IMG/VR virus record: IMGVR_UViG_3300005471_000015
Location: 1 to 63,230 of that record
Direction: 5' to 3' (one strand)
From: a virus
DNA length: 63,230 bases
Shown: positions 10,686-63,230 of the stretch, one piece after another
Position numbering within the stretch: the stretch's first letter is position 1
How the letters are laid out: each line of letters opens with the position of its first letter
The notes under the pieces: model-generated
Database searches by the model: none
What the model was told of the DNA's origin: nothing
The model's input: the letters and a program-made list of their open reading frames with translations, nothing else
Translations under genes and position numbers: made by a program

Positions 10686-10696
10686 CGAAGGGCACT

Positions 10697-10780: not shown

Positions 10781-10784
10781 GCTC

Positions 10785-10863
10785 GGTAAGGGAGTGCGGA
10801 TAGCTGCACACCAGGGGGCTGGGATCTCTCCTGGAGGCGCAGGTGCAACTCCTGCCCTTACCA
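10785..10863 (+). tRNA. tRNA-like gene, possible tRNA-Pro (GGG), extended anticodon stem
   Basis: Acceptor GGTAAGG/CCTTACC, D arm GTGC/GCAC, T arm GCAGG/CCTGC with loop TGCAACT and discriminator A are all well formed. The anticodon arm is too long: CCA plus GGGGG pairs with CTCTC plus TGG around a seven-base loop CTGGGAT, with one bulged C. That loop would give anticodon GGG (Pro) with U33 and A37. Functionality with an eight-pair stem is uncertain. Confidence 0.5.
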
Positions 10864-10901
10864 CGGTGCGCATGAAACGACTGGTGCCGTGATGGAGCAC
10901 A

Positions 10902-17443: not shown

Positions 17444-18063
17444 AGCCACTTCTCCCGGAACCTCTTGTCGGCTTGGAGCCACTCATGCTCACTGGCCACC
17501 GAGTCGAAGCCGACCTTGGTGTGGTGGTGTGTGTCCAGGTCGATGACCAGGCACCGTTTGCCTTTGAACTTGACCTGCATGCTGATCTCGTCGTAGCCGT
17601 GGAACCCGGGGAATCCTGTATCGAACCTCATCCATTGAATGGCCCATGGGGAGAAGGCCAGGAAGCTGCCCTCCAGGGAATCCACGTAGCCAGTCCGGGG
17701 CCCGAAATCGATGTTCATCGAATCGGTGAGCTGGTGCCCGACCGGGTCCACGTTCCACCACGCCAGGCCCTGAGCTGAACCACCACCAGCCACCCCCACC
17801 AGGGCCACATCCGGGTCCTGGAACGCCTCCAGGATCTTCTCCTCGGCGTAGAGGTCGGTGATCTCCAGGTCGTCATGCTGCAGGATCAGGGCGCTAGGCA
17901 GGGGACGCATGGGGCTGGCGTAGGCGGCCAGGATCTTGTTGTAGGCCACCGCGATCGACGGCTGCCCGTACAGAGCCACGATCTCGCTGTCGTAGGTATG
18001 CGGCACCACGTTGGCCTGGAACCTGTCCCAGGAGCCGACGCACACGCCATAGGCCACTACCAC
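17440..18063 (-). CDS. StrF-like glycosyltransferase
   Basis: 207 residues from GTG 18063 behind GGAGGG. ALILQHDDLEI in the first half and GYDEISMQVKFKGKR followed by DLDTHHH near the C-terminus match the StrF/Glyco_tranf_2_5 family, a GT-A-like group often found in surface-glycan clusters. Overlaps both neighbours by a few bases. Confidence 0.75.
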   Translation of the reverse strand: MVVAYGVCVGSWDRFQANVVPHTYDSEIVALYGQPSIAVAYNKILAAYASPMRPLPSALILQHDDLEITDLYAEEKILEAFQDPDVALVGVAGGGSAQGLAWWNVDPVGHQLTDSMNIDFGPRTGYVDSLEGSFLAFSPWAIQWMRFDTGFPGFHGYDEISMQVKFKGKRCLVIDLDTHHHTKVGFDSVASEHEWLQADKRFREKWL

Positions 18064-18734
18064 GGGCGCCCTCCGTACTTAGCGGCGAACGTCAGCCCGT
18101 CCATGCCTGACTGATGGTTCAGGAACGAGTTACGCATGGTCCAGTCATTCGGGTGAATGTTGTGGGCCACCGGTCCGGGGCAGATGACCATGCCCCCGTT
18201 GGCCCGTGCCTGCCAGTCGATGGCCGTGTCACACCACCACCAGAGCAGGTCCTCATCCGCCCTGATCCCCTTCTCCCCGGCCAGGATGAACGCCCACCCA
18301 CACATGCGCCCATTCAGGTCCTGGTCGGGTGCCTGCTTCAGGGTGGGCTGGTCCACCGGATGCCACTGGTGCGTGCTCCCAGCAGCGGCACCATGGGCCC
18401 GCATGCAGGAGCTGACCGCCTCGTACCAGCCGTCCGGGACCACGACGTCATCACACAGGATGGCTACATCCCATTCGGGACTCTGGTTCATGACACCACT
18501 GATGTAGTCAAGCCCACGGTTCCATAGGTAGCTGAGGTTGGTGGGCTGAAGATCATCCTGGACCAGGCCGACAGGGTTACCCTCGGGGGAAAAGCTGTCC
18601 AGGGCGACCGGAGGATTGGAGGCGTTGTCGATCACGATGGTCAGGTCGGCCTGCGCCCTGATCGCCTTGACACAGTCGGCCAGGAGTTCCGGACGGTCGT
18701 GCGTGAGAACGATGCTGTAGCGGGGGATGGTCAT
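18057..18734 (-). CDS. Family 2-like glycosyltransferase
   Basis: 225 residues. YSIVLTHDRPELLADCVKAI at the start and VAILCDDVVVPDGWYEAV in the middle resemble a GT-A domain with a D-D metal motif; a Trp-rich segment near residue 165 may be the acceptor region. Part of the same operon. Confidence 0.75.
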   Translation of the reverse strand: MTIPRYSIVLTHDRPELLADCVKAIRAQADLTIVIDNASNPPVALDSFSPEGNPVGLVQDDLQPTNLSYLWNRGLDYISGVMNQSPEWDVAILCDDVVVPDGWYEAVSSCMRAHGAAAGSTHQWHPVDQPTLKQAPDQDLNGRMCGWAFILAGEKGIRADEDLLWWWCDTAIDWQARANGGMVICPGPVAHNIHPNDWTMRNSFLNHQSGMDGLTFAAKYGGRPW

Positions 18735-18949
18735 CAGTCCTCCGGGGCAACGTGCCGATCAATGCTGATCACGTTGGTCAAGTGCACTGAGCGGAGCACG
18801 TTCCCGTGCCGCGCAGTCCGGACGAAGATCGTTGCCTTCCGGCGCTTCAACTGAACCGTGATGTAGGGACCGGTGATCACCGGGTAGTTCTGTACAATGT
18901 CATTGACCAGATAGACAACATTGACCCTGGCGCCCTGCTTATCAGCCAC
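18734..18949 (-). CDS. Small hypothetical protein in glycan module
   Basis: 71 residues; GTG 18949 with GGAGA six bases upstream preferred over TTG 18955. Predicted all-beta with basic strands (QLKRRKATIFVRTARHG). Resembles small OB/SH3-like phage proteins, without a firm match. Confidence 0.55.
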   Translation of the reverse strand: MADKQGARVNVVYLVNDIVQNYPVITGPYITVQLKRRKATIFVRTARHGNVLRSVHLTNVISIDRHVAPED

Positions 18950-20000
18950 GTTCAATCTCCAGGGCTCGGGTCCAAGCTTCCGCCCACCGCCACGCGTTGA
19001 CCTGGAGCGTCTGATCTTTCATGTACTCCCTGCCCGCCTCGGCCTGCTCCTTGCGCAGGACGTCATCGGTCATGAGCCGCTTGAGCTGCATGGCCCACTC
19101 CTTCGGGGTATCGGCCATAAGCCCGCACCCGGACTCACGGTGCAGGCGACGATACTCTTCACGAGGGGAGCCTACCCAGGGGACCCCTACCGCCATGTAC
19201 TCGATCGGTTTCAGCCTGGACTTCGACATGTTGAACGCCGTCGCAGCCAACGGAGCCATGCCCACATCCAACCGTTCCCCGATCGTCTTGGCCCACTCCA
19301 CCAGGGGCACGGACCCGGTGCACTCGGGTGGTTCAGGTAGCCGCAGCGCCTCCTTCACGCTGGACTTGCCGCCAACCACCTGAAACCTGAACCCTTCAGC
19401 CTGAAGCTGTTGAACAGCGCGCCCGGTCACCTGAAGATCGTTGGGATGGGACTTGGTGGTGCCGGCCCACCCGAACGTTCCCGCCTCCGGCTTGTCGAAT
19501 CTCAGGTACGCCTCCGGCACGTAGTTATCCAGAACCTGCCCCCGCCCATGCTTGGCGTACACCCGCAGAAGCTGCTTCGTGGACGCGGTAACCAAGGTGG
19601 CCAGTTTGCAGGACTCCGTGGCCCATTTCCAGGACAGCGGGGTCCCGGTGTTGTGCCGGTAGGTCTGGAAGGCGATGTTGTCCGGGTGGATGGATGACAT
19701 GTCATCGTCCATGTCCACCACAACCGCGATCCGGTTAGCCCGTAAGGCTTGGATCAACTGGGGCTGCAGCTCATGCGCCGGGCGCTGCACCACGATCACG
19801 TCAGCATCCTCCGGGACACTGGCCCCCACCAGCGTCTTACTGCCGTCCGGGTTGTCGCGGATCTTCACCATGAACCCGGAGTCCCGCTTCGGTGGCAGGA
19901 TCACCACATCCATGCCCTGCTGCTTCAACAGGCTGCCTGGCCAGATGAGCCGGTAGTGTCCGCACCCCATGGCGTCGGAGGGGATGACGTACACCTTCAT
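18942..20000 (-). CDS. GT-B fold glycosyltransferase (GT4-like)
   Basis: 352 residues, ATG 20000. MGCGHYRLIWPG near the start is an N-terminal Rossmann loop. FGWAGTTKSHPNDL (near 180) and the later KSRLKPIEYMAVGVPWVGS (near 270) give the nucleotide-sugar site, with E-Y-x-x-x-G as in GT4 enzymes. First gene of the glycan module after the tail genes, so it may be expressed with the virion proteins it could modify. Confidence 0.8.
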   Translation of the reverse strand: MKVYVIPSDAMGCGHYRLIWPGSLLKQQGMDVVILPPKRDSGFMVKIRDNPDGSKTLVGASVPEDADVIVVQRPAHELQPQLIQALRANRIAVVVDMDDDMSSIHPDNIAFQTYRHNTGTPLSWKWATESCKLATLVTASTKQLLRVYAKHGRGQVLDNYVPEAYLRFDKPEAGTFGWAGTTKSHPNDLQVTGRAVQQLQAEGFRFQVVGGKSSVKEALRLPEPPECTGSVPLVEWAKTIGERLDVGMAPLAATAFNMSKSRLKPIEYMAVGVPWVGSPREEYRRLHRESGCGLMADTPKEWAMQLKRLMTDDVLRKEQAEAGREYMKDQTLQVNAWRWAEAWTRALEIERG

Positions 20001-20007
20001 GGCCACC

Positions 20008-39600: not shown

Positions 39601-39888
39601 TCACCCCTGGGGTTGCGCCTGAGCCTGTGGCTGCGGGGGCGGGGCACCGGCTGGCGACCCTCCCTGGTCCGCGCCCTGGACAACATTCTGTTCGCCAGCC
39701 GGCTCGTCCAGGATAGAGAAGCGGGCGAACATCATCATTTTCAACATCTCATCCGGGGGCGGTGGCCACGGGTTGTTGGGATCAATGTCGGCCTCGGTGT
39801 CCGGGGGCGCCATCGTGGCGCCCGGCTGCGGTGGTGGTTGTTCCGGGGGCGGCACCGCAGCCGGGGCCGGCTGTACGGGAGCGGTCAC
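39601..39888 (-). CDS. Pro/Gln-rich small head-operon protein
   Basis: 95 residues, starting in an overlap with the preceding gene. Dominated by Pro, Ala and Gln at both ends, with one helical segment DEMLKMMMFARFSILDEP in the centre. Possibly a scaffold or tether. No family. Confidence 0.55.
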   Translation of the reverse strand: MTAPVQPAPAAVPPPEQPPPQPGATMAPPDTEADIDPNNPWPPPPDEMLKMMMFARFSILDEPAGEQNVVQGADQGGSPAGAPPPQPQAQAQPQG

Positions 39889-42272
39889 TGGTTACCGACC
39901 AGGGCGGCGAAGCGGGCCTCCCGCTCCCGTTGTGCGTAGATCTCCTCGTCTTCGGCCAGGTCACCCAGGCGTCCGGCCCGTTCGACCCGGTCGGCGGCAG
40001 CGTTCAGTTCGACGATGACCTGAGCGGCCACCTGGGAGGCGATGAGACTGGCGTCCATGGGGACGTGGGGGTCGATGCCGGTGGGGATCTCCTCATACGG
40101 CTCCAGGGTGCCGGCGGCGACCAGGGCGGTCTGGTCCCCGTTGTCCATCGCGTACACCGGGAACGCGGGGACATTCACCGCCAACGCTGCCGTCAGTTCC
40201 AGGCTGCCGTTGACCCGGCGCCAGTCACCGGAGATCGGGGACCGGCGCAGCTTGGCGACCTTGCGGTTATCGGCTTCCGGGACCACAGCCCCGGCCACCC
40301 AGACGCCGAACTCTCCGTCGGTGGCCCGGACCACGGCGGCCTCGTCGCCGGTGTGGTCGTAGTGGATGGCGGCGGCAGTGTAGCCGAGGCCGATGTCGGC
40401 GTGCCGGGTGTCCATGACGATCTTCCCGACCTTCACATAGTCACCCTCAGCCGTGTAGACGGTGCCCAGGTGGAAGGGCGCGTAGTCCTGGTGCGAGCGG
40501 GGGGCCAGGACGCATTCGTTGCGGGAGGCGAAGTCACGGTGGCATTCCCCCCAGGCTGCGATGTGCCCGAACACCTGACCTTCGGGGGTGACGGTGAGCG
40601 GGGTCTTCTGCGGCAGCTCGGATTTGAAGAACCACGCCTTCGGGGGCTCGACGGGGTACCCGTCGCTGATGGAGTAGGTGTCCTGGCGCCGTTTCTTGGT
40701 GGTCATGCCACCGTCCCCACTACTGGAGTCGGAGATCTCGATCCCGGCCTTCTGAGCGGCGGCCTTGATCTTGGCCTTGATGTTGGCGAGCTGCTTCTCG
40801 TCGTAGAACTTCGCGTTCTTTGCTTGATTGATATATGCCCATGCAGCTCTGATGTGCTCCGGGGTGTCGATCGGGTACCGCTTACGACTGTCCCGGTAGC
40901 CGGGGTCGGCGTATTTCACATCGCCATAGGGCTGATCGGCGGCAAAGCCGCCCTGCTCCTCGTGCGAAGGAGCACTCCAGCCCCCAGTTGCGTCCGTGGA
41001 CATTTGCACTCCTTCCTGTGCCGACCGGTCCCAGGGGGCCCGGATAGATGCGTCATTGAACGTCTTGGCCATCTCCGGGTAGATGTCACTGATCACGTTG
41101 CGGAGCTGAGCCATGTCGTGGTCCGGAACTCCGGGCAGGCCACCGTGGGCCCCTGAGAGTAGGGCGGCGGCCGCGTAGATGGCGTGGTAGACCATGGTCA
41201 GCTCGCCGCTGATGATGTCTCCGACCGGCAGCCGGTAGGAGGTGACAGCAGTGGGGGGCTGGGTGGCGTCGTACCACATGAACGCCTTACGCAGCTTCTC
41301 CACGTCGGCACCCTGAGCGTTCACGTTGGCCCAGGCCGCGATCCGTTTCACGGCGTCGTCGTTGTCGAACACAGCATCCCGGGGGGCCAGGGGCAGGCCC
41401 CGCCACCCGGCTGTGTTGACCGTGAACGTGTTGTCCGGGTCGTCGTTCATGGTCATCTGGGGGCCGCAGCCGCAGCCCTCCTCCTCCGGTCCCATGATCA
41501 TGTCCGGGTCGTCATCCGGCCAGTCCGCATCCCCGCTGAAGCTGTACAACCGGGTGCCGGAGAAGGCGGGGATGCTCACCAGGGTGGCCCCACCGATGGT
41601 GAAGGACATGACATGCTCCACCCCGGTCTGTGGGTCCACCTGGACCTTCATGTTGCCGCCGGGGTCGATGCTGGCCCCGGCCACTCCCTGCTCGACCAGG
41701 TACCGGGCCCGCCCGACTTCCGGGATGATGCTGTCATCGAGCCAGTCCCCCCAGGCGTAGGCGAACGGTTCCCCTTTCTCGTTGGGGCCGTAGCCAATGC
41801 CGAGGATCCGGGCCACGGTGATAGCCCCCATGTGGCCGGGGGCGCCACGCTCACGGGAGTCCAGGGGTAGGGGCAGGGCCCGGTGCCGCATGCCGCCGGG
41901 GTCGAGGATGCGGATGCGGTTGGGTTCTTCGGTGGGGCGGCCGAGGGCGGCCAGGGGCCCGGCCCACACGGCGCCGAGCTTGGGTTGGCGGTCCATGAGT
42001 TCTTGGGCGGCGACCAGGGAATCATGGTCGTAGACGGCCATGGCGCCGGAGTAGCTGATGCTGTGCTCCTGGCCGGGAGGTACGCCCAGGGCCTTAGTGT
42101 GCAGGATGTTGCACAGGCCCTTGGGATCCTTGGGGAAGTATTTGCGAAGCTGCCGGACGCATCGGTAGAAGTCTCTGGGCATACCCCAACGGATCTTGGC
42201 AGCACCTTTGCCAGCCAGCCAGTAACGCTGAAGCTGTAATGGCATCCCCCTGGCCGGGTTCGGGTCCACCAT
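39885..42272 (-). CDS. Capsid maturation protease-type protein
   Basis: 795 residues; ATG 42272 overlaps the MuF stop. The N-terminal third carries GAITVARILGIGYGP-like and TIGGATLVSIPAFSGT segments, the strand and serine context of actinophage prohead proteases. The middle holds a helical DUF-like region with AYINQAKNAKFYDEKQLANIKAKI. The C-terminal third contains GQVFGHIAAWGECHRDF...CVLAPRS and TRHADIGLGYTAAAIHYDHTGDEAA, a conserved block of many actinophage maturation proteins. Exact catalytic residues not proven. Confidence 0.7.
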   Translation of the reverse strand: MVDPNPARGMPLQLQRYWLAGKGAAKIRWGMPRDFYRCVRQLRKYFPKDPKGLCNILHTKALGVPPGQEHSISYSGAMAVYDHDSLVAAQELMDRQPKLGAVWAGPLAALGRPTEEPNRIRILDPGGMRHRALPLPLDSRERGAPGHMGAITVARILGIGYGPNEKGEPFAYAWGDWLDDSIIPEVGRARYLVEQGVAGASIDPGGNMKVQVDPQTGVEHVMSFTIGGATLVSIPAFSGTRLYSFSGDADWPDDDPDMIMGPEEEGCGCGPQMTMNDDPDNTFTVNTAGWRGLPLAPRDAVFDNDDAVKRIAAWANVNAQGADVEKLRKAFMWYDATQPPTAVTSYRLPVGDIISGELTMVYHAIYAAAALLSGAHGGLPGVPDHDMAQLRNVISDIYPEMAKTFNDASIRAPWDRSAQEGVQMSTDATGGWSAPSHEEQGGFAADQPYGDVKYADPGYRDSRKRYPIDTPEHIRAAWAYINQAKNAKFYDEKQLANIKAKIKAAAQKAGIEISDSSSGDGGMTTKKRRQDTYSISDGYPVEPPKAWFFKSELPQKTPLTVTPEGQVFGHIAAWGECHRDFASRNECVLAPRSHQDYAPFHLGTVYTAEGDYVKVGKIVMDTRHADIGLGYTAAAIHYDHTGDEAAVVRATDGEFGVWVAGAVVPEADNRKVAKLRRSPISGDWRRVNGSLELTAALAVNVPAFPVYAMDNGDQTALVAAGTLEPYEEIPTGIDPHVPMDASLIASQVAAQVIVELNAAADRVERAGRLGDLAEDEEIYAQREREARFAALVGNQ

Positions 42273-42997
42273 CACCGTCCCCTTTCGTTCACGATCACCA
42301 GGTCGCATCGGCAGTTAATCACGGCCTCCGGGGGGGCGGTGGGATCTCCCGGAAACATGAGCGGGGTGCCATCAACATAGAAGGGCATGCCCAGGTCACG
42401 GACCTGACCGTCTACTGCTCGATGGGATATTCGGACTCGTTCATCATGTTCGGTGTCCCAGCGCTTTTGAAGTAGGCGACCGGACACCCTGGATTGCTCC
42501 AGACCGCCGGCCAGGGTGCCGGCTCCGTAGGCTCGGGTGACTTCGGTCTGGGCGATGGTACGAGCACGGGCGGGCCATCGCTCAGACCCTGAGTAGTGCA
42601 GAACCCTGTCCACCCGGGCTGCGACTCCGTCAAGATCCTCGCCTCCATTCACGGCATCGGTGATCTCTGCGAAGATCAGGTTGTAGACCTCATCCGGGAG
42701 CCGGGCGAGGAGGTTCTGCGTCTGGGCGAGCTGGGCCATGACGAAGGCGTGCCGGGATACCGGGAGGACATCCACCGCCTCGGACCAGGCGGCCATGGAG
42801 ATCTGGCCGATCGTGGTCATTATGGTGTCGACTTCGGCGTTCCAGGCCCCCTGTTCCTGGAACACTGCATTAGGATCCGGCTGGAGCTTGTAGCGACGCC
42901 ACGGCTCCAACACCCTTTCCCGCACCCTGTCCAGCCACCGGCGTAACGCTGCCCCCACAACCCCGGTGAGCCGGCTCTCGTCACCCTGTCGGCTCAT
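42272..42997 (-). CDS. MuF-like minor head protein
   Basis: 241 residues. ARTIAQTEVTRAYGAG and, at the C-terminus, KRWDTEHDERVRISHRAVDG...FYVDG followed by NCRCDL are the signatures of the phage Mu F / SPP1 gp7 head-morphogenesis family. Located right after the portal gene, overlapping it by four bases. Minor capsid component involved in assembly or DNA ejection. Confidence 0.9.
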   Translation of the reverse strand: MSRQGDESRLTGVVGAALRRWLDRVRERVLEPWRRYKLQPDPNAVFQEQGAWNAEVDTIMTTIGQISMAAWSEAVDVLPVSRHAFVMAQLAQTQNLLARLPDEVYNLIFAEITDAVNGGEDLDGVAARVDRVLHYSGSERWPARARTIAQTEVTRAYGAGTLAGGLEQSRVSGRLLQKRWDTEHDERVRISHRAVDGQVRDLGMPFYVDGTPLMFPGDPTAPPEAVINCRCDLVIVNERGR

Positions 42998-45965: not shown

Positions 45966-47402
45966 TTACTGAAATAGGTTGTTCAGATCGTATAGCTGCT
46001 GGCTGAGCCGGAAGTCGTACTTCGACGGGTCGCTGACCCGCATCACCTTCCGTTCACCGGCCATCAGGTTGATGGACGCATGGACCATGGCGTCCATCCG
46101 GTCTGGACTCTCCCTGGTGGACTGCGGATCGAACAGCACCATCTGATCCTCCAGTTCGGGCCAGTCCCCCACAACGTGCAAACGACCCTGTTCACAGCGC
46201 ATGGCCACAGGCTCAGCCCGGGTCTTCTTTCCATGGCGCGCATGAACAGGCTTCATAGGGGGGGTGGTCCCCCTGGGGAACATTCCAAGCTCCACGCATT
46301 CCTGATACGCATCCTGCAGAACCTCCTGCAGGTAACGCTTACCCAGGTTTTCCTCATATACGACCAGGTCGACCATGAACTCGGCCGCTGCCCGCCAGAT
46401 AGCCAGAGCCGCCGCGCGCCCTGAGTCCGGGACGGACCGGTCGGCCAGGATGTACTGCTCGTTGTCCCGGGTGCGGCACATGATCACGATGCCGGTCAGG
46501 TTCTCCTCACCGGTAAGGTTGGGGTCCACGCCGATGACGGTGACTACCACGTCGGCGGGATCAGGGGGCTCCAGGACACGATGACGAACGATGTCGACGC
46601 GTTTGAACAGGCCACCGCTCTGCAGCTCCAGCAGTTTGCCGTACAGCTCCTGCTCGCCGAGGGCGGTGCCGTGGTAGCGCAGCTTCAACTCCCGCAGGGC
46701 GTGGGAGCTGAGGTTGACGGAGTTGTCGAATGTGGAGCCGGTGATGACGTGAATGGTGGCGTCCTCGCGGGCCAGCCATTCGATCAGCAGCTTGATCGGC
46801 TTCGGGGTGGTGGTGACGAACGCCCGAGGATGGTCACCGATCAGGTCAGCTCGCAGGGACGGCAGCAGACCCTCATACCAGGTCTCATAAGGCTTGACCC
46901 ATTTGGCCATCTCGTCGCACAGGACCCCGGCCGCGTTGTATCCACGCCCGGTGTTCTCGTCGTCGGCACCCTCCAGGTAGATCTTCGCCCCGTCGGGGAA
47001 CAACACCATGGGGCGTGGGCTCTGCTTGTAGCGGTGTTCGATCCGACGCCGGATCAGAATGTTCAGGATGCCGCTCGGGCCTTCAGCGTTGATGGTCCGA
47101 GCGTCAGCGAGGGTGTCGGCGACCACCAGCCATTCGGTGGGGACCCCGTGCCGGTCGAACGGGTGCCGGACAGCCTGATCCACGATCCATTCGGAGCCGG
47201 CTCGCGACTTCCCGGCCCCACGGCCGGCCATGAACAGGTAAATCAGCTCATCGCCTTCGGGTGGGATCTGTTCCGGCCGGGCTACATACCACCATTCCCC
47301 CCGGTTCATCTCCAGGAGGACGGCTTCGGGCAGGGTGCGGACATACTCCTCACGCACGCGGGCGGGGAGCTTGGCCATCCGTTGGGCGAGTGACAGGCCC
47401 AC
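45966..47402 (-). CDS. terL: Terminase large subunit
   Basis: 478 residues. Walker A is AGRGAGKSRAGSEW (near residue 58), Walker B is AAGVLCDEMAKW (near 165) and the coupling motif is TTTPKPIKLL (near 200). The nuclease domain has VIGVDPN (near 290), VVYEEN (near 345) and a final SPDRMDAMVHA. The ATPase drives packaging and the RNase H-like nuclease cuts concatemers. First gene of the late operon. Its small-subunit partner appears to lie 10 kb away at 57769. Confidence 0.95.
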   Translation of the reverse strand: MGLSLAQRMAKLPARVREEYVRTLPEAVLLEMNRGEWWYVARPEQIPPEGDELIYLFMAGRGAGKSRAGSEWIVDQAVRHPFDRHGVPTEWLVVADTLADARTINAEGPSGILNILIRRRIEHRYKQSPRPMVLFPDGAKIYLEGADDENTGRGYNAAGVLCDEMAKWVKPYETWYEGLLPSLRADLIGDHPRAFVTTTPKPIKLLIEWLAREDATIHVITGSTFDNSVNLSSHALRELKLRYHGTALGEQELYGKLLELQSGGLFKRVDIVRHRVLEPPDPADVVVTVIGVDPNLTGEENLTGIVIMCRTRDNEQYILADRSVPDSGRAAALAIWRAAAEFMVDLVVYEENLGKRYLQEVLQDAYQECVELGMFPRGTTPPMKPVHARHGKKTRAEPVAMRCEQGRLHVVGDWPELEDQMVLFDPQSTRESPDRMDAMVHASINLMAGERKVMRVSDPSKYDFRLSQQLYDLNNLFQ

Positions 47403-56671: not shown

Positions 56672-56876
56672 GCTCCTGGGTCCGGACTCCTGCCTGATGA
56701 TCGATGACGAATCGTTGATCTTTAACGTGACCCTTGGCCATCCACCCATCGTCCAGGCACACGGCCACCATGTGTTGGTCATCGGCCAGGAGCCGCCCCC
56801 GACGGTCTACCCGGACTGTTGGCTGGGATTCCAGCGGGATGTCCTGGTCACAGTTGGGGCAGGTCACCACTCTCAT
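56655..56876 (-). CDS. Small zinc-ribbon-type protein
   Basis: 73 residues, ATG 56876. Opens MRVVTCPNCDQDIPL, one Cys pair of a ribbon, followed by a basic strand and a later cysteine (VAVCLDDG). Overlaps both neighbours by a few bases. Function unknown. Confidence 0.6.
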   Translation of the reverse strand: MRVVTCPNCDQDIPLESQPTVRVDRRGRLLADDQHMVAVCLDDGWMAKGHVKDQRFVIDHQAGVRTQEHDETS

Positions 56877-57166
56877 GTCTTGATCACCTTCGCCTTCTCT
56901 GCCGCTATCCCGATCCATCGGAAGATGATCGGGACCCAGATGATGGCCGCGAACCTCCACTCGTGGACCTGGTACGCGTACAGGCTCCAGAGCCCGGCCA
57001 CGATGAGCTTGCTGGTCATCCAGACCATAGTGAGGGAGCACCCTGCCCATCCGTACTGCTTCACGGTGGACTTGATGGCATGGGACACCTCCCTATTGAC
57101 CATGACCATGGCGGTACTGAGGGCTGAGGACAGGGTCACGAGGGCCAGGATGAGGTTCAGGACCAT
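56873..57166 (-). CDS. Membrane protein, first gene of the leftward arm
   Basis: 97 residues with three hydrophobic spans (about 2-22, 44-63 and 69-88). Its promoter, start codon and second codon lie in repeat R1, identical to those of the gene at 91, but the proteins differ from residue 3 on. The two membrane-protein genes are thus expressed from the same control sequence in opposite directions. Confidence 0.7.
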   Translation of the reverse strand: MVLNLILALVTLSSALSTAMVMVNREVSHAIKSTVKQYGWAGCSLTMVWMTSKLIVAGLWSLYAYQVHEWRFAAIIWVPIIFRWIGIAAEKAKVIKT

Positions 57167-57172
57167 CCCCCC

Positions 57173-57201
57173 ACCCTACCCCTCCCTATGCCAGGACTCA
57201 A
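57173..57201 (-). promoter_or_regulatory. Putative promoter (R1 mirrored copy)
   Basis: Same boxes as at 56-84 (TTGAGT, 17 bases, TAGGGT), here pointing left into the gene at 57166. Confidence 0.5.
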
Positions 57202-57215
57202 GGTGTCCTGTTTCA

Positions 57216-57461
57216 TTGATCAGGCTCCCTGTCCCGGCCCCCCGCTCCATCGATCAGGCTCCCTGTCCCCGCCCCCTGAACCCTTGATCACCGATATATA
57301 CAGTTGATCATTAGGTGGCGCATGTGGCGCATCGTTTCCTAACCCTGGACCCTTTTTCCTGAACCTGTTACATATGGTATTTTTTTTTTCTGGGGACCTT
57401 TTCCGAAACTCACTACGCCACCTACAGATCAACTTACTATTGACAAAAGGGGACATTTTAC
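57216..57461. other. AT-richer region with GATCA-type repeats, origin candidate
   Basis: GATCAGGCTCCCTGTCCC occurs twice as a direct repeat (near 57219 and 57252), and TTGATCA occurs twice near 57284 and 57303. GTGGCGCAT is tandemly repeated near 57317, and a run of ten T lies near 57377. The stretch 57280-57450 is the most AT-rich part of the window. Together these could be an origin or a control region; direct evidence is lacking. Confidence 0.35.
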
Positions 57462-57920
57462 ATGAAACCGGAGTACGGGGAGGTCGTGCGGAGGTTCCTA
57501 GCCGATCAAGGCGGCCTGTACCGCTACCTTCAGATGCGCTGGTGGCACCTGGACGATGGATACTGGACCAGGGAATCAGGTAGAGGGGCCCTGGAACGAG
57601 ACTTGATCAACTGGATGTACGGGTACGCTCCCGGCCCCCTGAAGAACATGACCATCGCCGACATGAACCACATGTGCGCGGCCATGTCTCGCACCCTGAC
57701 CACCACCAGGCTCCCCGCCCGGTACATCGATGCGGATCAGGACCCCGCGATCATAAACTGGAGATCCTTCACAGCGTCCCCTCGTTCATCCGAGCCTCCA
57801 GCTCAGCCAGACCCCGGATCACCAGCTCCGCCTTCGGCACCAGGTCCCCGTCCGGCTGATCCGCACCCGGCTGCGGAAGGTCAAGCCGGTACAGTTTCGC
57901 CAGCCGGTCACACACCCTGA
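57462..57920 (+). CDS. Hypothetical protein with Pro-rich tail
   Basis: 152 residues, ATG after AAAAGGGGACATTTTAC. The first 105 residues look genuine: helical, with YRYLQMRWWHLDDGYWTRESG and a methionine-rich segment. The last 45 are Pro/Ala/Ser-rich and read antisense to the small terminase gene, so conservation probably ends near residue 105. Function unknown. Confidence 0.6.
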   Translation: MKPEYGEVVRRFLADQGGLYRYLQMRWWHLDDGYWTRESGRGALERDLINWMYGYAPGPLKNMTIADMNHMCAAMSRTLTTTRLPARYIDADQDPAIINWRSFTASPRSSEPPAQPDPGSPAPPSAPGPRPADPHPAAEGQAGTVSPAGHTP

Positions 57921-58086
57921 TCCCGGCTTCGATGAAGCGTGGATCAGGCTTCCCGGCGGCTCCGATGATCCAGGGTTCGCAGGTGCGCCAGATCTTCTCC
58001 AGCCGTTCCACGACCAGGGCCCGGACGAGGGGTGCGGATTCACTGATCTGGTCGTCGGCGATGCCTCGGGTGGTCAACTCGTCCAT
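57769..58086 (-). CDS. Probable terminase small subunit
   Basis: 105 residues, ATG 58086. VRALVVERLEKIWRTCEPWIIGAAG followed by PDPRFIEAGIRVCDRLAKLYRLD resembles short actinophage small-terminase-like proteins with a G-K-P-D-P-R-F turn and a helix giving DNA contact and ring formation. It lies 10 kb from the large subunit and inside the inferred inverted repeat, as if next to the packaging site. Assignment is tentative. Confidence 0.5.
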   Translation of the reverse strand: MDELTTRGIADDQISESAPLVRALVVERLEKIWRTCEPWIIGAAGKPDPRFIEAGIRVCDRLAKLYRLDLPQPGADQPDGDLVPKAELVIRGLAELEARMNEGTL

Positions 58087-58112
58087 GCCAACAGCATGCA
58101 GACCCGGGTTCC

Positions 58113-58157
58113 TGCATATCAACATGCACCAGGGCAAAGATGCATATCAACATGCAC
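58113..58157. promoter_or_regulatory. Tandem operator-like sites
   Basis: TGCATATCAACATGCAC occurs exactly twice, at 58113-58129 and 58141-58157, 28 bp apart. Each contains TGCAT and its complement ATGCA separated by six bases. They lie 27 bases upstream of the small-terminase-like start and are good candidates for binding of a dimeric regulator or the packaging protein. Confidence 0.6.
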
Positions 58158-58402
58158 AGAAGGACTGTGTGCTCGTGCCAGGGTCCCTGACACCTCACGG
58201 GCACCTGAGCCTGGTCCACTCAACTAAGACATCGAAGAGGAGTCATGGACCATTGCGTCAGGGTTCAGGCACCCTTTTCTTAGCGGGGGCCGGGTGCGAT
58301 GATCCACTGATTCCTCGGGTGCCTGCTCCCTGTGGGGGGTCAAGGGCGCCATGGATCTTGGCTGCGCAGGGCCCCAGGGGGCTGGCCATGGGGCGGGGCG
58401 AG
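58158..58402. other. Gap without a recognised gene
   Basis: Contains inverted GGGTGCC/GGCACCC elements and a 12-codon frame at 58225 preceded by GAGGAG that might be a leader peptide. Otherwise nothing identifiable. Confidence 0.3.
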
Positions 58403-58513
58403 GGGGCAAGATCAAGGATCATGGGGGCCTTGATCAGGGATCATGAGACAGGGTGCCCCTGCCCCCTGGCCCGGGTGCGGGCACAGGGGGCAAGGGGGGA
58501 GGGGGCTAGTGGG
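58403..58513. repeat. R2 inverted repeat, inner copy
   Basis: 111 bases identical to the reverse complement of 63120-63230. Contains GATCA-rich and G-rich tracts. The stop of the gene at 58506 and, in the other copy, the end of the gene at 63054 both touch the inner border. Confidence 0.97.
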
Positions 58514-58769
58514 CTGCCCGCCACTCATCCACGCGAGCCGCGAACCCAGTCAAGGTCCGCGGACACCCGGTCATGTCGATCAGGTCACCGGTGGCCAGGA
58601 TGAGGAGCTGCCCGGTCTCGGCGTGTAGCTCGTGCCGGTACACGGTGGCGTACGCTCCGCCGTCCCATACGTACGTGTGCCGGTCGCCCGGGCTGTACCG
58701 GTAGGCTGGCACCGTCCCATCATCGGGCACGGTCGATGTGACCCTCTCGATCATCTTCCGTCGAGGCAT
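58506..58769 (-). CDS. Small hypothetical protein with leader stem-loop
   Basis: 87 residues, ATG 58769 with GGAGGCGATC. Mixed alpha/beta (HTYVWDGGAYATVYRHELHAETGQLLILATGDL). Upstream CCGTCCACCGTGGACGG (gene sense) forms a hairpin identical to the one before the gene at 62101. The last codons lie in R2. Function unknown. Confidence 0.6.
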   Translation of the reverse strand: MPRRKMIERVTSTVPDDGTVPAYRYSPGDRHTYVWDGGAYATVYRHELHAETGQLLILATGDLIDMTGCPRTLTGFAARVDEWRAAH

Positions 58770-58784
58770 GATCGCCTCCATTCT

Positions 58785-58801
58785 CCGTCCACGGTGGACG
58801 G
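58785..58801 (-). promoter_or_regulatory. Leader stem-loop
   Basis: CCGTCCACCGTGGACGG in gene sense, an eight-pair palindrome, 16 bases before the ATG at 58769. Same 17 bases in gene sense at 62068-62084. Confidence 0.7.
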
Positions 58802-58842
58802 TCACCGCACCCGGGGTCCTGTGTGGACACCGGGTGCCGTGA

Positions 58843-58974
58843 TCACTCCACAGTGGGCTTCCCGATCTTGTGCTCGATCCGTCCGAGCGTCCGCCTGATC
58901 GCACCCAGTGACCAGGCGATGATCTCTAACTGAAACGTGATCAACACCATGATGATCATTATTGCTTTGATCAT
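58843..58974 (-). CDS. 43-residue membrane protein
   Basis: ATG 58974 overlaps the stop of the preceding gene. Residues 2-24 are a membrane span rich in Ile and Met, followed by a basic helix (RRTLGRIEHKIG). Function unknown. Confidence 0.55.
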   Translation of the reverse strand: MIKAIMIIMVLITFQLEIIAWSLGAIRRTLGRIEHKIGKPTVE

Positions 58975-59144
58975 CAGGCATCCCACTCCACCGACACGGT
59001 GATCGAGTCGGGCCGTGGGAGCGGCAGCGCCGCCTTCGGCACGTACAGCGTGCGCAGGGCACCGGTGTCGCTGCCTGGCATGTCGTACCGGTGCGTACCC
59101 TTGGTCTCCTTGGTCCACACCAGCGTGACCTTGATCGGCTCCAT
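58974..59144 (-). CDS. Small protein whose start lies in a hairpin loop
   Basis: 56 residues; ATG 59144 preceded by AAGGGAGG. GGCTCCA (just before) pairs with TGGAGCC (just after) so that the start codon is in the loop. The product is beta-rich and polar (KVTLVWTKETKGTHRYDM). Function unknown; translation control by this hairpin is inference. Confidence 0.6.
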   Translation of the reverse strand: MEPIKVTLVWTKETKGTHRYDMPGSDTGALRTLYVPKAALPLPRPDSITVSVEWDA

Positions 59145-59153
59145 TGTGGAGCC
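59137..59153 (-). promoter_or_regulatory. Start-codon stem-loop
   Basis: GGCTCCA and TGGAGCC enclose the ATG of the gene at 59144; part of the ribosome binding site is in the stem. Confidence 0.6.
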
Positions 59154-59238
59154 TCCCTTCATGATCCGTTCACCCGACCATCGGGTGCCACGGTGCCGGG
59201 CGCAGGGCTCCCGGCGCCATGGGTGGCGATGGTCAAGC

Positions 59239-59355
59239 TCACCAGTACCAGCGACCGGTCAGCCGGCCCCACCGGGCTCCCAGCTTGCGCTGGACCCACC
59301 GGGGGGCCCGGTAGAACCGGGTGTCGCCGTACTGGTCGGTGCACTGCACTACCAT
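59239..59355 (-). CDS. 38-residue basic protein
   Basis: ATG 59355 after GAGCAAGGATC. Product is rich in Arg and Trp (FYRAPRWVQRKLGARWGRLT). Found by inspection; codon pattern and ribosome binding site agree with the neighbours. Function unknown. Confidence 0.5.
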   Translation of the reverse strand: MVVQCTDQYGDTRFYRAPRWVQRKLGARWGRLTGRWYW

Positions 59356-59373
59356 GATCCTTGCTCCGTTCCT

Positions 59374-59422
59374 CGTCCGACCGTCGGACGTGACCGTACA
59401 CTGTGGAGTGTCCACAGTGTAC
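59374..59422 (-). promoter_or_regulatory. Two palindromes upstream of a small gene
   Basis: CGTCCGAC/GTCGGACG (59374-59390) and GTACACTGTGGA/TCCACAGTGTAC (59396-59422, 12-bp arms, three-base centre). The second belongs to the GTCCAC...GTGGAC leader family of this arm; it could also be a protein-binding site. Confidence 0.6.
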
Positions 59423-59441
59423 GATCATGCTCGGTGGTCGG

Positions 59442-59588
59442 CTACTCGATCGTGATCTCAAGCCCGGAGGCGGTAGCCTCGCTCTCAGAGATCGTGATCT
59501 CATCGGCCTTGATCGTGACCGTCTTCCCGTTCTCGATCGCCTGGTGGAGCACGTCGAGGATCTTGGTCAAGTGCTCGGACTCGGACAT
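59442..59588 (-). CDS. 48-residue hypothetical protein
   Basis: ATG 59588 after AGGAGTGATC. Acidic helix then beta strands (TVTIKADEITISESEA). Upstream ACTGCCCA...TGGACAGT is a member of the leader stem-loop family. Function unknown. Confidence 0.55.
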   Translation of the reverse strand: MSESEHLTKILDVLHQAIENGKTVTIKADEITISESEATASGLEITIE

Positions 59589-59678
59589 GATCACTCCTAA
59601 CTCGACTGTCCACGCTGGGCAGTCGGCAGGGATCATCGATCACGGGGGGATGCCCCGGGTGCGCGTGCCCGGCCCGAG

Positions 59679-59741
59679 TTACACGGTTGCCCGCGGCGGG
59701 ACTCGGCCAACGGCGGCAGGGTGCCTGCCTCGCACGGCCAT
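59679..59741 (-). CDS. Possible 20-residue peptide
   Basis: ATG 59741 with a weak GAGG upstream; product is basic and Pro/Arg-rich. A GTCCACCCTGGAC palindrome lies upstream as for other genes in this arm, the only reason to list it. Confidence 0.25.
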   Translation of the reverse strand: MAVRGRHPAAVGRVPPRATV

Positions 59742-59812
59742 GATGTTGAGCCTCGATGATCCCTGCTCACTGTCCAGGGTGGACGGCCCCCGGTCGCCCG
59801 GGGGCCTGTACC

Positions 59813-60028
59813 CTAGTCGTACTCGACGCTGACCCACCCGTTCTCCATGAGGTCCCGCAGGACCCCGGAGGTCGTCCGACACACGTCCGCGACGCCCATG
59901 CCGGTCGCCCGGAGGTCGATCATTGCCTGCGCCACCCGGGCGCTCATGTACCGACCAAGGTCGTTACGGAGCGCGTTTCGGATAGCTCGCTGCTCGTCCG
60001 TGATACGGATCTTGCTTCCCTCGGCCAT
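59813..60028 (-). CDS. Small helical protein near parS
   Basis: 71 residues, ATG 60028 after GGGAGGCCAGCG. Helical with ITDEQRAIRNALRNDLGRYMS and VADVCRTTSGVLRDLM; might hold a short DNA-binding helix pair. The perfect parS at 60089 is 61 bases upstream of its start. Function unknown. Confidence 0.6.
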   Translation of the reverse strand: MAEGSKIRITDEQRAIRNALRNDLGRYMSARVAQAMIDLRATGMGVADVCRTTSGVLRDLMENGWVSVEYD

Positions 60029-60088
60029 CGCTGGCCTCCCGTTCGTGCCTGCTGTCCAGGGGGTTCCTGGGCAGTCACGGCGTGGCCA

Positions 60089-60104
60089 TGTTTCACGTGA
60101 AACA
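60089..60104. promoter_or_regulatory. parS: Perfect parS site, intergenic
   Basis: TGTTTCACGTGAAACA without mismatch; the palindrome extends by two more bases on each side (CA/TG). Lies between two small leftward genes, not in a coding sequence. Confidence 0.95.
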
Positions 60105-60123
60105 TGACCCACCGTGATGTTGG

Positions 60124-60300
60124 CTAGATCATGCCGGCCACCATGACCAGCGACGCGCACCCGTACGGGCAGGTGCCATCAGGCTCAACTTCACACCCGT
60201 CCACGCAGTAGTACTCGTCTTCGGCCATCATGTCGTACACCTCATCCATGTCCACCTCGACAGGGTTGCCGTTGTGGTCGGTAGTGAACAGTGCGGGCAT
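60124..60300 (-). CDS. Small acidic Cys-containing protein
   Basis: 58 residues, ATG 60300 with GAAGGGAGGG. Very acidic centre and CVDGCEVEPDGTCPYGC, a four-cysteine set. Driven by the promoter at 60327. Function unknown. Confidence 0.6.
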   Translation of the reverse strand: MPALFTTDHNGNPVEVDMDEVYDMMAEDEYYCVDGCEVEPDGTCPYGCASLVMVAGMI

Positions 60301-60326
60301 GGGGCCCTCCCTTCGTTCGAGCCTCA

Positions 60327-60355
60327 AGTGTACCCCGGGGAGGGGTGGGTGTCTA
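60327..60355 (-). promoter_or_regulatory. Putative promoter with C-rich spacer
   Basis: On the minus strand TAGACA, 17 bases with CCCACCCCTCCCC, TACACT. Leftward promoter of the divergent pair at 60.35 kb. Confidence 0.6.
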
Positions 60356-60380
60356 TGACGTAGGTCACACCCTAGTGATC

Positions 60381-60408
60381 AACTTACCGGGGAGGGGTGG
60401 GGTACGCT
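60381..60408 (+). promoter_or_regulatory. Weak rightward promoter candidate
   Basis: TACGCT at 60403-60408 is preceded by a GGGGAGGGGTGGGG spacer, but the -35 position reads AACTTA. Listed because the spacer matches other candidates and a rightward start is needed here. Confidence 0.3.
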
Positions 60409-60452
60409 GGACCCCGGTCGGGCACGGTGCCCGGCCAGGAAGGAAGTGTGCG

Positions 60453-60836
60453 ATGAGCACATCGAGCAGAGACGCGATGGCGCGCGGGGACACCCGGGCG
60501 TGGCTCGACAGCATGGGCCCGGATGAGTCCGAGCGTGTGGACGTCGTGACCCCCCTCGGGGAGGCGCACGGCACCTTCGCGCGGGTCGGCCTGGCCGTGG
60601 TGATCGTGACCGACAGCGGCGACGTTGACGCGCACGGGCACCCGGACGAGGCTACCGCGCACGAGTGCTACCAGGCACGCGTGGACGAGGCGCAGGGCAT
60701 GATCAACATGCTGGCCGAGTCCGGTGCGCTGGTCACGTCGGAGGATCTCGACGTGGCCCCGGGTCTGTCGTCCATGCCGGCGTACGTCCCGCTGCACAGG
60801 GCCCCGGATGACGGGCCGGGCTTCATGGTCATCTAG
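60453..60836 (+). CDS. Hypothetical protein, first rightward gene of the short arm
   Basis: 127 residues, ATG 60453 after AGGAAGGAAG. SSRDAMARGDTRAWLDSMGPD then strand-rich GTFARVGLAVVIVTDSGDV and a helical acidic part. No family recognised. No leader palindrome precedes it, unlike its downstream neighbours. Confidence 0.65.
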   Translation: MSTSSRDAMARGDTRAWLDSMGPDESERVDVVTPLGEAHGTFARVGLAVVIVTDSGDVDAHGHPDEATAHECYQARVDEAQGMINMLAESGALVTSEDLDVAPGLSSMPAYVPLHRAPDDGPGFMVI

Positions 60837-60875
60837 CACGGAACGCACCCTGGTCACGGGGGTCAGGGTGCGCGC

Positions 60876-60968
60876 GGAGGGTTAGCTCAACGGGAGAGCG
60901 ACCGTGGTCCTGTGAGATCCAGTGACCATCACCCACGGTACACGGCGGTTCGACTCCGCCACCCTCCA
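60876..60968 (+). tRNA. tRNA-like gene with enlarged anticodon arm
   Basis: Acceptor GGAGGGT/ACCCTCC, D arm GCTC/GAGC, T arm GGCGG/CCGCC with loop TTCGACT and discriminator A are canonical. The anticodon arm is a 39-base hairpin, stem ACCGTGG/CCACGGT with an inner GTGA/TCAC, instead of 17 bases. No seven-base anticodon loop is evident; CTGTGAG inside could present GTG (His) but pairs badly. Either an intron-like insertion or a non-translating tRNA mimic. Confidence 0.55.
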
Positions 60969-60974
60969 CGGTAG

Positions 60975-61010
60975 ACAGTCCAATGGGGACAGTCACCAGT
61001 CCAGAGAGGA
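60975..61010 (+). promoter_or_regulatory. Leader inverted elements
   Basis: AGTCC...GGACAGT occurs twice (AGTCCAATGGGGACAGT and AGTCCAGAGAGGACAGT), the second overlapping the ribosome binding site of the gene at 61018. Members of the short-arm leader family. Confidence 0.5.
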
Positions 61011-61017
61011 CAGTACC

Positions 61018-61260
61018 ATGGTCCAGTTCAACGAGAGCCGCTCGGCCAACGTCACCGTGTCCGGCACCATCACCAACCACGGCGCGACCGTGACCGTGTG
61101 GGACGTGGAGCAGGCACTCCAGCGCACCGCCCGGGACAACGGCTTCACGCTCACCGGGCTCACGGTCACCGTGGAGCCGGGGGAGCGCACCGTGACCCTC
61201 ACCGAGTCGGAGTACAGCGCCCTGACCAGCCCGAGCGAGGCCAGCACCACCGAGGCGTGA
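61018..61260 (+). CDS. 80-residue hypothetical protein
   Basis: ATG 61018 after GAGAGGACAGTACC. Beta-rich with regularly spaced Val/Thr (SANVTVSGTITNHGATVTVWD), a helix, and further strands. No family. Followed by a 10-bp hairpin at 61268. Confidence 0.6.
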   Translation: MVQFNESRSANVTVSGTITNHGATVTVWDVEQALQRTARDNGFTLTGLTVTVEPGERTVTLTESEYSALTSPSEASTTEA

Positions 61261-61267
61261 GCCTCCG

Positions 61268-61295
61268 CCCCGGTACCCGTCGAACGGTACCGGGG
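61268..61295 (+). terminator. Perfect 10-bp hairpin
   Basis: CCCCGGTACC pairs with GGTACCGGGG over eight bases. No T-run follows. Confidence 0.5.
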
Positions 61296-61305
61296 CCCTA
61301 GTCCG

Positions 61306-61322
61306 ATGTGGAGGGTCCACAT
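61306..61322 (+). promoter_or_regulatory. Leader stem-loop
   Basis: ATGTGGA and TCCACAT flank GGG, about 22 bases before the ATG at 61345. Confidence 0.6.
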
Positions 61323-61344
61323 AGGACGGAAGGGAGATCGGGCC

Positions 61345-62016
61345 ATGTCCGATCAAGCAACGACCGTAGATCAGGAAGTCCTCGCGGTACAGATGGCGAT
61401 CATCGATCGCGCTGTGCGTGAGGCACGGCGGCGGGGATGGTGTGACGCCTTCAATGGGGCCATGGCTCGGATCTTCCCGGACGGCCCGCCGGACGGCTCC
61501 ACGACGTTCGTGGACTCGGACGGGTGGTCCTGCCACTGGTACGACCGGGAAGGGTTCCACCGCGACAGTGGGTGCAACCGTGACGGTTACGACCGTGACG
61601 GATACGACGCGGCCGGGTACGACCGTCAAGGGCTCAACCGTCAAGGGTTGAACCGGTACGGGCGTGACGCGGACGGGTACGACGCGGACGGGTACGACGC
61701 TGGCGGCTGGGGCCGTGACGGCGTGCACCGCGACGGGTACCGGCGCGACAGCGACGAGTACCGGGCCCGGTTCCGGTTCGACCGGTGGGGCTACGACCGT
61801 GACGGCTACGACCGCAACGGGCGTGACCGTCAGTCGCTCACCAGGGAGCAGCGTGCCACCCTGGGGGACGCCATCTACCGGTACGACTACGACCCTGCGT
61901 ATGGGCTCGTGGACGTTGACGGCCGAGACACGGCCGGGTACCCGACGCGTGGCGTTGACGCGCCGCGCGTGGAGCCGGCCGACCGGCAGGCCCTTCGGGC
62001 GGCCGGGGTCTACTGA
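61345..62016 (+). CDS. Protein with GYDRDGYD tandem repeats
   Basis: 223 residues, ATG 61345 after AGGGAGATCGGGCC. An N-terminal helical part (1-60) is followed from about 65 to 160 by a five-residue repeat of the form R/A-D/Q-G-Y/L-D/N, with more than 15 copies. A charged C-terminal part follows. Such DGYDR repeats form extended, Asp/Tyr/Arg-rich surfaces; a role in binding metal, RNA or protein cannot be told from sequence. Confidence 0.7.
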   Translation: MSDQATTVDQEVLAVQMAIIDRAVREARRRGWCDAFNGAMARIFPDGPPDGSTTFVDSDGWSCHWYDREGFHRDSGCNRDGYDRDGYDAAGYDRQGLNRQGLNRYGRDADGYDADGYDAGGWGRDGVHRDGYRRDSDEYRARFRFDRWGYDRDGYDRNGRDRQSLTREQRATLGDAIYRYDYDPAYGLVDVDGRDTAGYPTRGVDAPRVEPADRQALRAAGVY

Positions 62017-62067
62017 TCAACGGTGGTAGAGCATCGTGATCAGTCCCATGTGGACTGATCACGGTGT

Positions 62068-62084
62068 CCGTCCACCGTGGACGG
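62068..62084 (+). promoter_or_regulatory. Leader stem-loop
   Basis: CCGTCCACCGTGGACGG, 16 bases before the ATG at 62101; identical in gene sense to 58801-58785. Confidence 0.7.
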
Positions 62085-62100
62085 AGAAAGGCGGTCAGTG

Positions 62101-62739
62101 ATGACCGAGCAAGTATTGGTGACCTTGAATGTGTCACCGGCCGTAGAGGCAGAGCTACGGCGCATCGTGGTCGACACCGAGAGGGTTGTCGGCCCCGGTG
62201 GCGACTACCGGTCGTACCGGCCGTGGGTGTACCGGATCATCCGGGACGCCGTGCCCGGCATGACCCGGGCCCTGTGGCGTGAGTGGGCCGGGCGTGAGCC
62301 TGACCTGTCACAGGAGCCCGGAGGCGAGCAGCACGCCCGGGAGCAGTACATCCGTGACCATGCGCTGCTGCGACACCATGGGCGCCCTACGTGCTGCCGG
62401 GACTGCGACAGGGACAGTGCTGATGTGCTCCGTCTGGAGCTAGCCGGCCGGGGCGAGCCCACCGAGGCACCCGAGTACCAGGCGCCCACAGAGGCGCCCG
62501 TGGAGCCTGTGCAGGAGCGCACCTGTGAGTGCGACGACTGCATCGACGACCGGTGCCAGGGTGATTGTGATCATTGCGATGATCACGGGTGCGAGCAGTG
62601 CTACGGTGATCACAACATTTACGACTGTTGTGGCTACTGTGAGGATTGCGACACACACCCTGATTCGGCGGATAGTCCGCATTACCACCGATGCGAGTCA
62701 TGCGACCATTGTTCCGATTGCGATCACTACTGCCGGTGA
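62101..62739 (+). CDS. Cys/Asp/His-rich protein with helical N-terminus
   Basis: 213 residues. Residues 1-80 are helical (YRSYRPWVYRIIRDAVPGM), 80-140 contain C-C-x-x-C and a Pro/Glu linker, and 140-213 hold more than 20 cysteines in CxxC and CxC pairs with many Asp and His (CECDDCIDD, CDHCDDHGCEQC). This could bind several zinc or other metal ions. The Cys-rich end uses more A/T in third positions (GAT, TGT) than the rest, suggesting separate origin. Confidence 0.7.
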   Translation: MTEQVLVTLNVSPAVEAELRRIVVDTERVVGPGGDYRSYRPWVYRIIRDAVPGMTRALWREWAGREPDLSQEPGGEQHAREQYIRDHALLRHHGRPTCCRDCDRDSADVLRLELAGRGEPTEAPEYQAPTEAPVEPVQERTCECDDCIDDRCQGDCDHCDDHGCEQCYGDHNIYDCCGYCEDCDTHPDSADSPHYHRCESCDHCSDCDHYCR

Positions 62740-62770
62740 TCGCCGGGCGGGCGTCTATCAAGCGGCGTCC

Positions 62771-62800
62771 GTCCACGGTGGACAGTCCATAGGGGACTGT
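62771..62800 (+). promoter_or_regulatory. Leader inverted elements
   Basis: GTCCACGGTGGAC (62771-62783) and, overlapping, ACAGTCC/GGGACTGT (62782-62800), just before GGAAAGGAG and the ATG at 62820. Confidence 0.55.
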
Positions 62801-62819
62801 CCCGGAAAGGAGAGCACCA

Positions 62820-62864
62820 ATGATCAAAGAAACCATGATCGACACCATCACCGTGGGGCCCTGA
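62820..62864 (+). CDS. Possible 14-residue peptide
   Basis: ATG 62820 with a strong AAAGGAG and a leader stem-loop, stop at 62862-62864. Product is Ile/Thr-rich. Could be a leader peptide for the next gene, or a chance frame. Confidence 0.3.
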   Translation: MIKETMIDTITVGP

Positions 62865-62886
62865 ACCGGTCCCCCTGAGTCGATCC

Positions 62887-63057
62887 GTGCGCACCAGGGC
62901 GCTCCGCAAGGCCGCCCGGGCATGGGAGGCCGGTCATCCGCACCAGGCATGGGAGATCCTGACCGATGCTGGGATGGGTGAGGCCTGGCCTGTGTTCCGG
63001 GACGAGGCATTGCGGCGAGCCCGGCGCCGGTTCGAGACAAGGATGGCGCGATCATGA
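62887..63057 (+). CDS. 56-residue basic helical protein
   Basis: GTG 62887, no strong ribosome binding site. Rich in Ala, Arg and Trp (RKAARAWEAGHPHQAWEIL), amphipathic helices. Ends in an ATGA overlap with the next gene, which supports it. Function unknown. Confidence 0.5.
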   Translation: MRTRALRKAARAWEAGHPHQAWEILTDAGMGEAWPVFRDEALRRARRRFETRMARS

Positions 63058-63119
63058 AGCGTTCTACCCTGGCCTGGTGGTTGGCAGCTCTGGCTCTGCT
63101 CCTCGCCACCTTGGCCTGA
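63054..63119 (+). CDS. 21-residue membrane peptide
   Basis: ATGA overlap with the previous stop. Sequence MKRSTLAWWLAALALLLA plus three residues is a single membrane span. Its stop codon ends exactly one base before repeat R2. Confidence 0.5.
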   Translation: MKRSTLAWWLAALALLLATLA

Positions 63120-63230
63120 CCCACTAGCCCCCTCCCCCCTTGCCCCCTGTGCCCGCACCCGGGCCAGGGGGCAGGGGCACCCTGTCTCATGATCCCTGAT
63201 CAAGGCCCCCATGATCCTTGATCTTGCCCC
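63120..63230. repeat. R2 inverted repeat, right copy (truncated by window end)
   Basis: Exact reverse complement of 58403-58513 and running off the window. Its inner border is the stop of the gene at 63054. Confidence 0.97.

Follow-up and report, generated by a model that had tools for sequence, protein, structure and literature searches.

Inverted repeats very probably divide the circular map of an uncultured soil phage and its relatives into a long and a short arm

Results

Organization of the window and gene content of the arms

The stretch of DNA analysed here, referred to as the window, comprises the 63,230 bases of record IMGVR_UViG_3300005471_000015 and belongs to an uncultured soil phage; no end repeats are recorded for it. 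It consists of a long arm, L (97–57160), with head, tail, replication and recombination genes, a fully assembled repeat of 1353 bp, R (57161–58513), and a short arm, S (58514–63119), in addition to the two ends of a second repeat copy, R'. The genes of S are small, diverge from its centre and point at R and R'. The gene adjoining R (58506–58904, minus strand) has its stop codon within R and has relatives in contigs G011 and G014, and a gene for a protein of 55 residues (62887–63057, plus strand) adjoins R'. The short arm also contains a tRNA-His gene (60876–60969) and a gene (61306–62016) whose protein has repeated DRDGYDRDGYD-like units and relatives in G010 and G011. In the long arm, tRNA-Met and tRNA-Pro genes are located at 10615–10864 and several glycosyltransferase-like genes (phrog_14775, phrog_7162) at 14115–20006 on the minus strand. 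A protein of 807 residues (39885–42308, minus strand) matches both portal-like and head maturation protease families, and a portal gene lies nearby.

A very probable circular map with two inverted copies of R

The outer end of R', on the side of the long arm, occupies positions 1–96 (minus strand) and is the exact reverse complement of 57161–57256. Its inner end, on the side of the short arm, lies at 63120–63230 (minus strand) and is the exact reverse complement of 58403–58513. Both matches had been reported in a sequence-only reading of the window and were confirmed, ending at exactly those bases. A search for inverted repeats of at least 40 bp (seed 20) returned just these two in the window, each 100% complementary, and perfect matches of 96 and 111 bp far exceed what chance would produce. 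Of the 1353 bp, the window contains just 207 in duplicate; we infer the central 1146 bp of R' and, with them, the identity of the whole second copy. Both matches are the outer ends of one and the same segment, entered from either contig end, as a second inverted copy requires: the left contig end continues into R from its outer end and the right contig end from its inner end. The outer end of R thus has two long-arm neighbours and the inner end two short-arm neighbours, and therefore the map is read as a circle, L-R-S-R', with two inverted copies. A linear genome with terminal inverted repeats was also considered and was rejected, since both ends of S join the inner end of R as well. With L of 57 kb and S of 4.6 kb, the map would measure about 64.4 kb (64,376 bp assuming a complete second copy). 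The window hence has the layout of an inverted-repeat genome with a large and a small unique region, the middle of the second copy being taken from the first.

Recurrence of the repeat in related contigs

Relatives were fetched with the terminase large subunit TerL (45966–47402, minus strand) and with the protein encoded in R, and further ones were found through the box motif of R described below. The comparison covered 15 contigs, this window included, and the portal proteins of the relatives are 60–81% identical to that of this phage. In G013 and G022, the match to TerL is split in two by about 0.8 kb of the contig, perhaps owing to an insertion in the gene. Neither a DNA match of the window to isolates nor the same species in other samples was found.

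Homologous repeats, of 1.0–1.4 kb within the clade, are present in 13 of the 15 contigs, in which 34–123 bp at the contig end overlap the equivalent repeat, always inverted. G000 and G010 have such an overlap at both ends, G002 and G003 are long arms bounded on either side by the outer end of R, and G011–G016, G021, G022 and G027 have an overlap at one junction; no inverted end overlap was found in G001 and G017. The overlaps are 100% identical except in G021 (99%), the least clear case, where the overlap sits in repeat-rich sequence. Dense short direct repeats are found in G021 at 58351–59746, close to the right end of the contig. Inverted internal sequence at contig ends is a typical form of chimera, which would speak for an assembly or amplification artefact. 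However, the overlap recurs at the same place, with conserved parts, in 13 contigs that have diverged to the portal identities given above, which is not expected of an artefact, and we regard this explanation as negligible.

The second copy of R was never assembled past about 123 bp in any contig, as happens when an assembler gives a node present in two copies to one path. No contig centred on S with R on either side was found. Judged by gene order, R is complete or almost so at the right end of L in seven contigs (G000, G001, G010, G011, G013, G022 and G027), whereas six (G012, G014, G015, G016, G017 and G021) have it at the left end, thus R belongs at both; in each contig the opposite end of L, where it reaches R, bears merely about 100 bp of it. 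Since just the ends of R are seen twice in any one genome, the matches of 96 and 111 bp might also be short inverted repeats unrelated to each other, with a second locus that has a different middle. In that case contigs would extend into the unique middle, which none of the 13 does, and the full R at either end of L in different relatives, with about 100 bp at the other, argues against such a locus; this explanation is very improbable. The proposal of the sequence-only reading that a second inverted copy is missing from a circular map is therefore well supported: it is the sole simple arrangement that fits the neighbours of R, its signature recurs across the clade, and relatives carry the full repeat at either end of L. 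The recurrence and the contents of the repeat go beyond what that reading noted. We consider the two-copy inverted-repeat structure as close to certain: two inverted copies of R very probably separate a long from a short arm on a circular map, both in this phage and in a dozen or more of its relatives.

A predicted outward promoter at the outer edge of R

At its outer edge R contains a predicted outward promoter for a leaderless message (57164–57201, minus strand; TTGAGT-N17-TAGGGT-N6-ATG), and the identical predicted promoter in R' (56–93, plus strand) is directed into the left end of L. The first open reading frame at the right end of L (56873–57166, minus strand) has its start codon within R, and that at the left end (91–417, plus strand) within R'. 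The pattern TANNNT-N6/7-[AG]TG was present at nine of ten outer edges of R, compared with 1.9% of random 110-nt windows. Beyond the start codon the copies of R stay alike for no more than about 45 nt, thus two different first genes of L would share a promoter and a start codon. A consensus sigma-70 scan of R gave no promoter, and the leaderless reading uses the actinobacterial TANNNT form. Leaderless messages are known in actinobacteria, and the phage is probably actinobacterial, because its portal relatives are. The spacing between promoter and ATG suggests that leaderless transcription may start from the outer edges of R. Both edges of the repeat (57161–57190 and 58480–58513, and likewise in G010 and G011) are G-rich on the strand leaving R; an example is GGTTAGGGG near the inner edge in G010 and G011. 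Possibly, these edges are stopping points of gene conversion tracts.

A protein related to terminase small subunits is encoded in R

R encodes a protein (57769–58086, minus strand) related to terminase small subunits (TerS) and lacking a helix-turn-helix. Across the clade it has 105–120 residues with invariant core residues. Phrog_645, labelled RNase E in PHROGs, was matched by 11 of 12 members (best E-value 2.4e-5). The nearest isolate protein is gp1 of the Gordonia phage Lilbeanie, deposited as terminase small subunit. This relationship to a known TerS is present in the sequence and remote (tblastn 7e-3; profile 1.6e-8 for one target). The profile aligns to residues 66–140 of gp1 and leaves out its N-terminal part, in which a helix-turn-helix was recognized by eye. 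The R protein of this window itself had no match among isolates, those of the relatives reached just Lilbeanie, and a pattern scan of bacterial genomes returned none. The protein has no room for a helix-turn-helix, and its predicted structure (pLDDT 81) is a helical hairpin with short strands. Searches against solved structures and folds gave no significant match; Foldseek with the model listed the TerS of phage 44RR weakly (E 1.2). In contrast to the R protein, Lilbeanie gp1 has an extra N-terminal part and adjoins terL, and long inverted repeats were found neither in the Lilbeanie nor in the Polewnik genome. A second open reading frame in R (57462–57920, plus strand), of uncertain status, has a relative, recognized by eye, in G011 alone.

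A two-box site upstream of the R protein gene

Box 1, TGCATATCAACATGCA, is present in two copies (58113–58128 and 58141–58156, plus strand), and box 2, ACATCGAAGAGGAGTCATG, follows about 77 bp from it (58229–58247, plus strand). In the clade the boxes read GATGCATATCAACATGCA and ACATCGAAGAGGAGTCATG, separated by 75–79 bp of unconserved sequence. All 13 contigs that cover this section of R have both boxes immediately upstream of the R protein gene, two of them with a variant first box. Outside the clade, the exact 18-bp first box was found in viral_contigs in just one unrelated group of AT-rich sequences. The two-box block gave no sign of RNA structure (consensus fold of just −3.8 kcal/mol, no covariation), and an Rfam search yielded a single sub-threshold riboswitch match, located elsewhere.

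Box 1 has dyad symmetry around a 6-bp centre, like some recombinase core sites, and might accordingly be read as part of an invertase switch as in phages P1 or Mu, in which a recombinase flips S and varies a gene product. However, tyrosine (PF00589) or serine (PF00239) recombinase domains were detected in none of 14 contigs, with controls giving matches, which makes such switching unlikely; moreover, S has no recognized tail-fibre gene and no gene split into constant and variable parts. We see only a very slight chance for this explanation.

The fixed spacing and the position just upstream of a TerS-like gene make the two-box site most likely a putative packaging start of the terminase. In SPP1, pac overlaps the promoter, the ribosome site and the start of terS, and TerS binds pacL and pacR around the cut (PMC6316719). 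The likeness lies in two recognition regions that flank a spacer beside terS (PMC6316719), and the TerS-like gene together with the two-box site led us to propose R as a doubled packaging and early-promoter module. The difference is that one pac region is described for SPP1, whereas here the whole unit would be doubled and inverted and the putative pac is known from position and geometry. A packaging role of R has about even odds, and the boxes could be operators or an origin instead. TGATCA enrichment was considered as a sign of a P1-like pac; it is present in R and was rejected as such, being part of a general GATC richness that reaches into S.

As operators for the R protein gene, the boxes would fit a static repeat, namely a doubled cassette of early promoter and regulator that gene conversion keeps uniform; in this reading S does not turn and the repeat takes no part in packaging. 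The outward promoter at either end of L, the place of the boxes immediately upstream of the gene and the missing counterpart of the N-terminal part of Lilbeanie TerS all agree with this. Yet gene conversion between long inverted repeats normally brings crossovers too, and a spacing of 75–79 bp kept over unconserved sequence beside a TerS-related gene fits pac better than a plain operator. We regard the static cassette as possible but doubtful.

AT-rich sequence and GATC in R

The most AT-rich 120 bp of the window (57351–57470, 39% GC) lie in R, and in nine of ten genomes R likewise contains the contig's GC minimum over 120 bp. In each of the ten, R is richer in GATC than the remaining sequence, in most of them by a factor of about two. 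In the window, the region 57161–60000, which covers R and the start of S, has about twice the GATC frequency found elsewhere. Just four contigs (G011, G014, G016 and G017) clearly have a perfect hairpin of terminator type at the inner edge of R. The GC minimum and the raised GATC would also suit a replication origin in each copy, formed by the two boxes and the AT-rich stretch, with the repeats driving double rolling-circle amplification as in the yeast 2-micron plasmid; in known systems this mode of replication links inverted repeats to inversion (PMC3147054). Against this, no Flp-like recombinase was found, AT-richness is common in intergenic DNA, and no iteron array common to the genomes was seen. 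An origin is therefore a rather unlikely function of R.

Orientation of the short arm

S measures about 3–6 kb in the clade, and the gene for the 55-residue protein, found in this clade alone, is common to all seven short arms seen, invariably at one and the same end. S is joined to L one way in five contigs (G000, G010, G011, G014 and G021) and the opposite way in two (G012 and G015); the pair of sister phages G010 and G015 shows one of each. These differences were rejected as proof of flipping, because short reads cannot phase across an R of 1.0–1.4 kb. As the genes of S point outward from its middle and gene boundaries coincide with the repeat edges, an inversion would break no gene. Flipping of S was raised as a possibility in the sequence-only reading. 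Both joinings fit a short arm that flips, and we consider it probable that S does so.

Discussion

Taken together, we propose that R is a duplicated, inverted module for packaging and early transcription. It would supply both ends of L with an identical outward promoter and with the start codon of a leaderless first gene, as the conserved pattern indicates, and two inverted copies of a packaging start would allow packaging from either end of L. Genes that match an exonuclease family and a RusA resolvase are present in the phage. Through gene conversion, homologous recombination would maintain the identity of the inverted copies, and the same exchange would invert S, so that two isomers should coexist. 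We assign this overall explanation, an L-R-S-R' map with a doubled packaging and early-promoter module, gene conversion and an inverting S, a probability of roughly 60%.

Inverted-repeat genomes with two isomers are already known outside tailed phages. In chloroplast DNA, HSV-1 and the 2-micron plasmid, inverted repeats accompany isomers (PMC3147054). Chloroplast genomes and HSV-1 resemble the phage in having two unique regions parted by inverted repeats, and their isomers occur in equal amounts (PMC3147054); here, in contrast, R is about 1 kb, the genome is that of a tailed phage, the repeat includes a predicted promoter and a packaging-like gene, and the isomers are putative. The yeast 2-micron plasmid is likewise circular, with two unique regions parted by inverted repeats of 599 bp (PMC3147054), but the present genome is a tailed phage of 64 kb in which no Flp-like recombinase was found. 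Phage P1 inverts its C segment by the Cin recombinase and thereby switches tail fibres (PMC6906374). An invertible genome segment would be common to both phages, the inversion being putative here; in contrast to P1, neither a recombinase nor a tail-fibre gene was found. Literature searches of incomplete coverage returned no earlier description of this layout for a whole family of tailed phages, which is weak evidence of novelty.

Tentatively, these phages may represent a tailed-phage family built as long arm, repeat, short arm and inverted repeat, in which terS, packaging site and early promoter are doubled, packaging and early transcription proceed from either end of L, and two isomers exist. 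More genomes of this kind can be sought by the same signature, in which the ends of a contig match the reverse complement of sequence inside it. A single packaging site and a single terS are the norm among tailed phages. A clade in which a short arm is flanked by two inverted copies of each would shed light on what determines the direction of packaging, on the means by which phages prevent long repeats from diverging, and on the listing of such genomes in virus catalogues as linear fragments; the contigs of this clade stop at the repeat, and their records show no end repeats.
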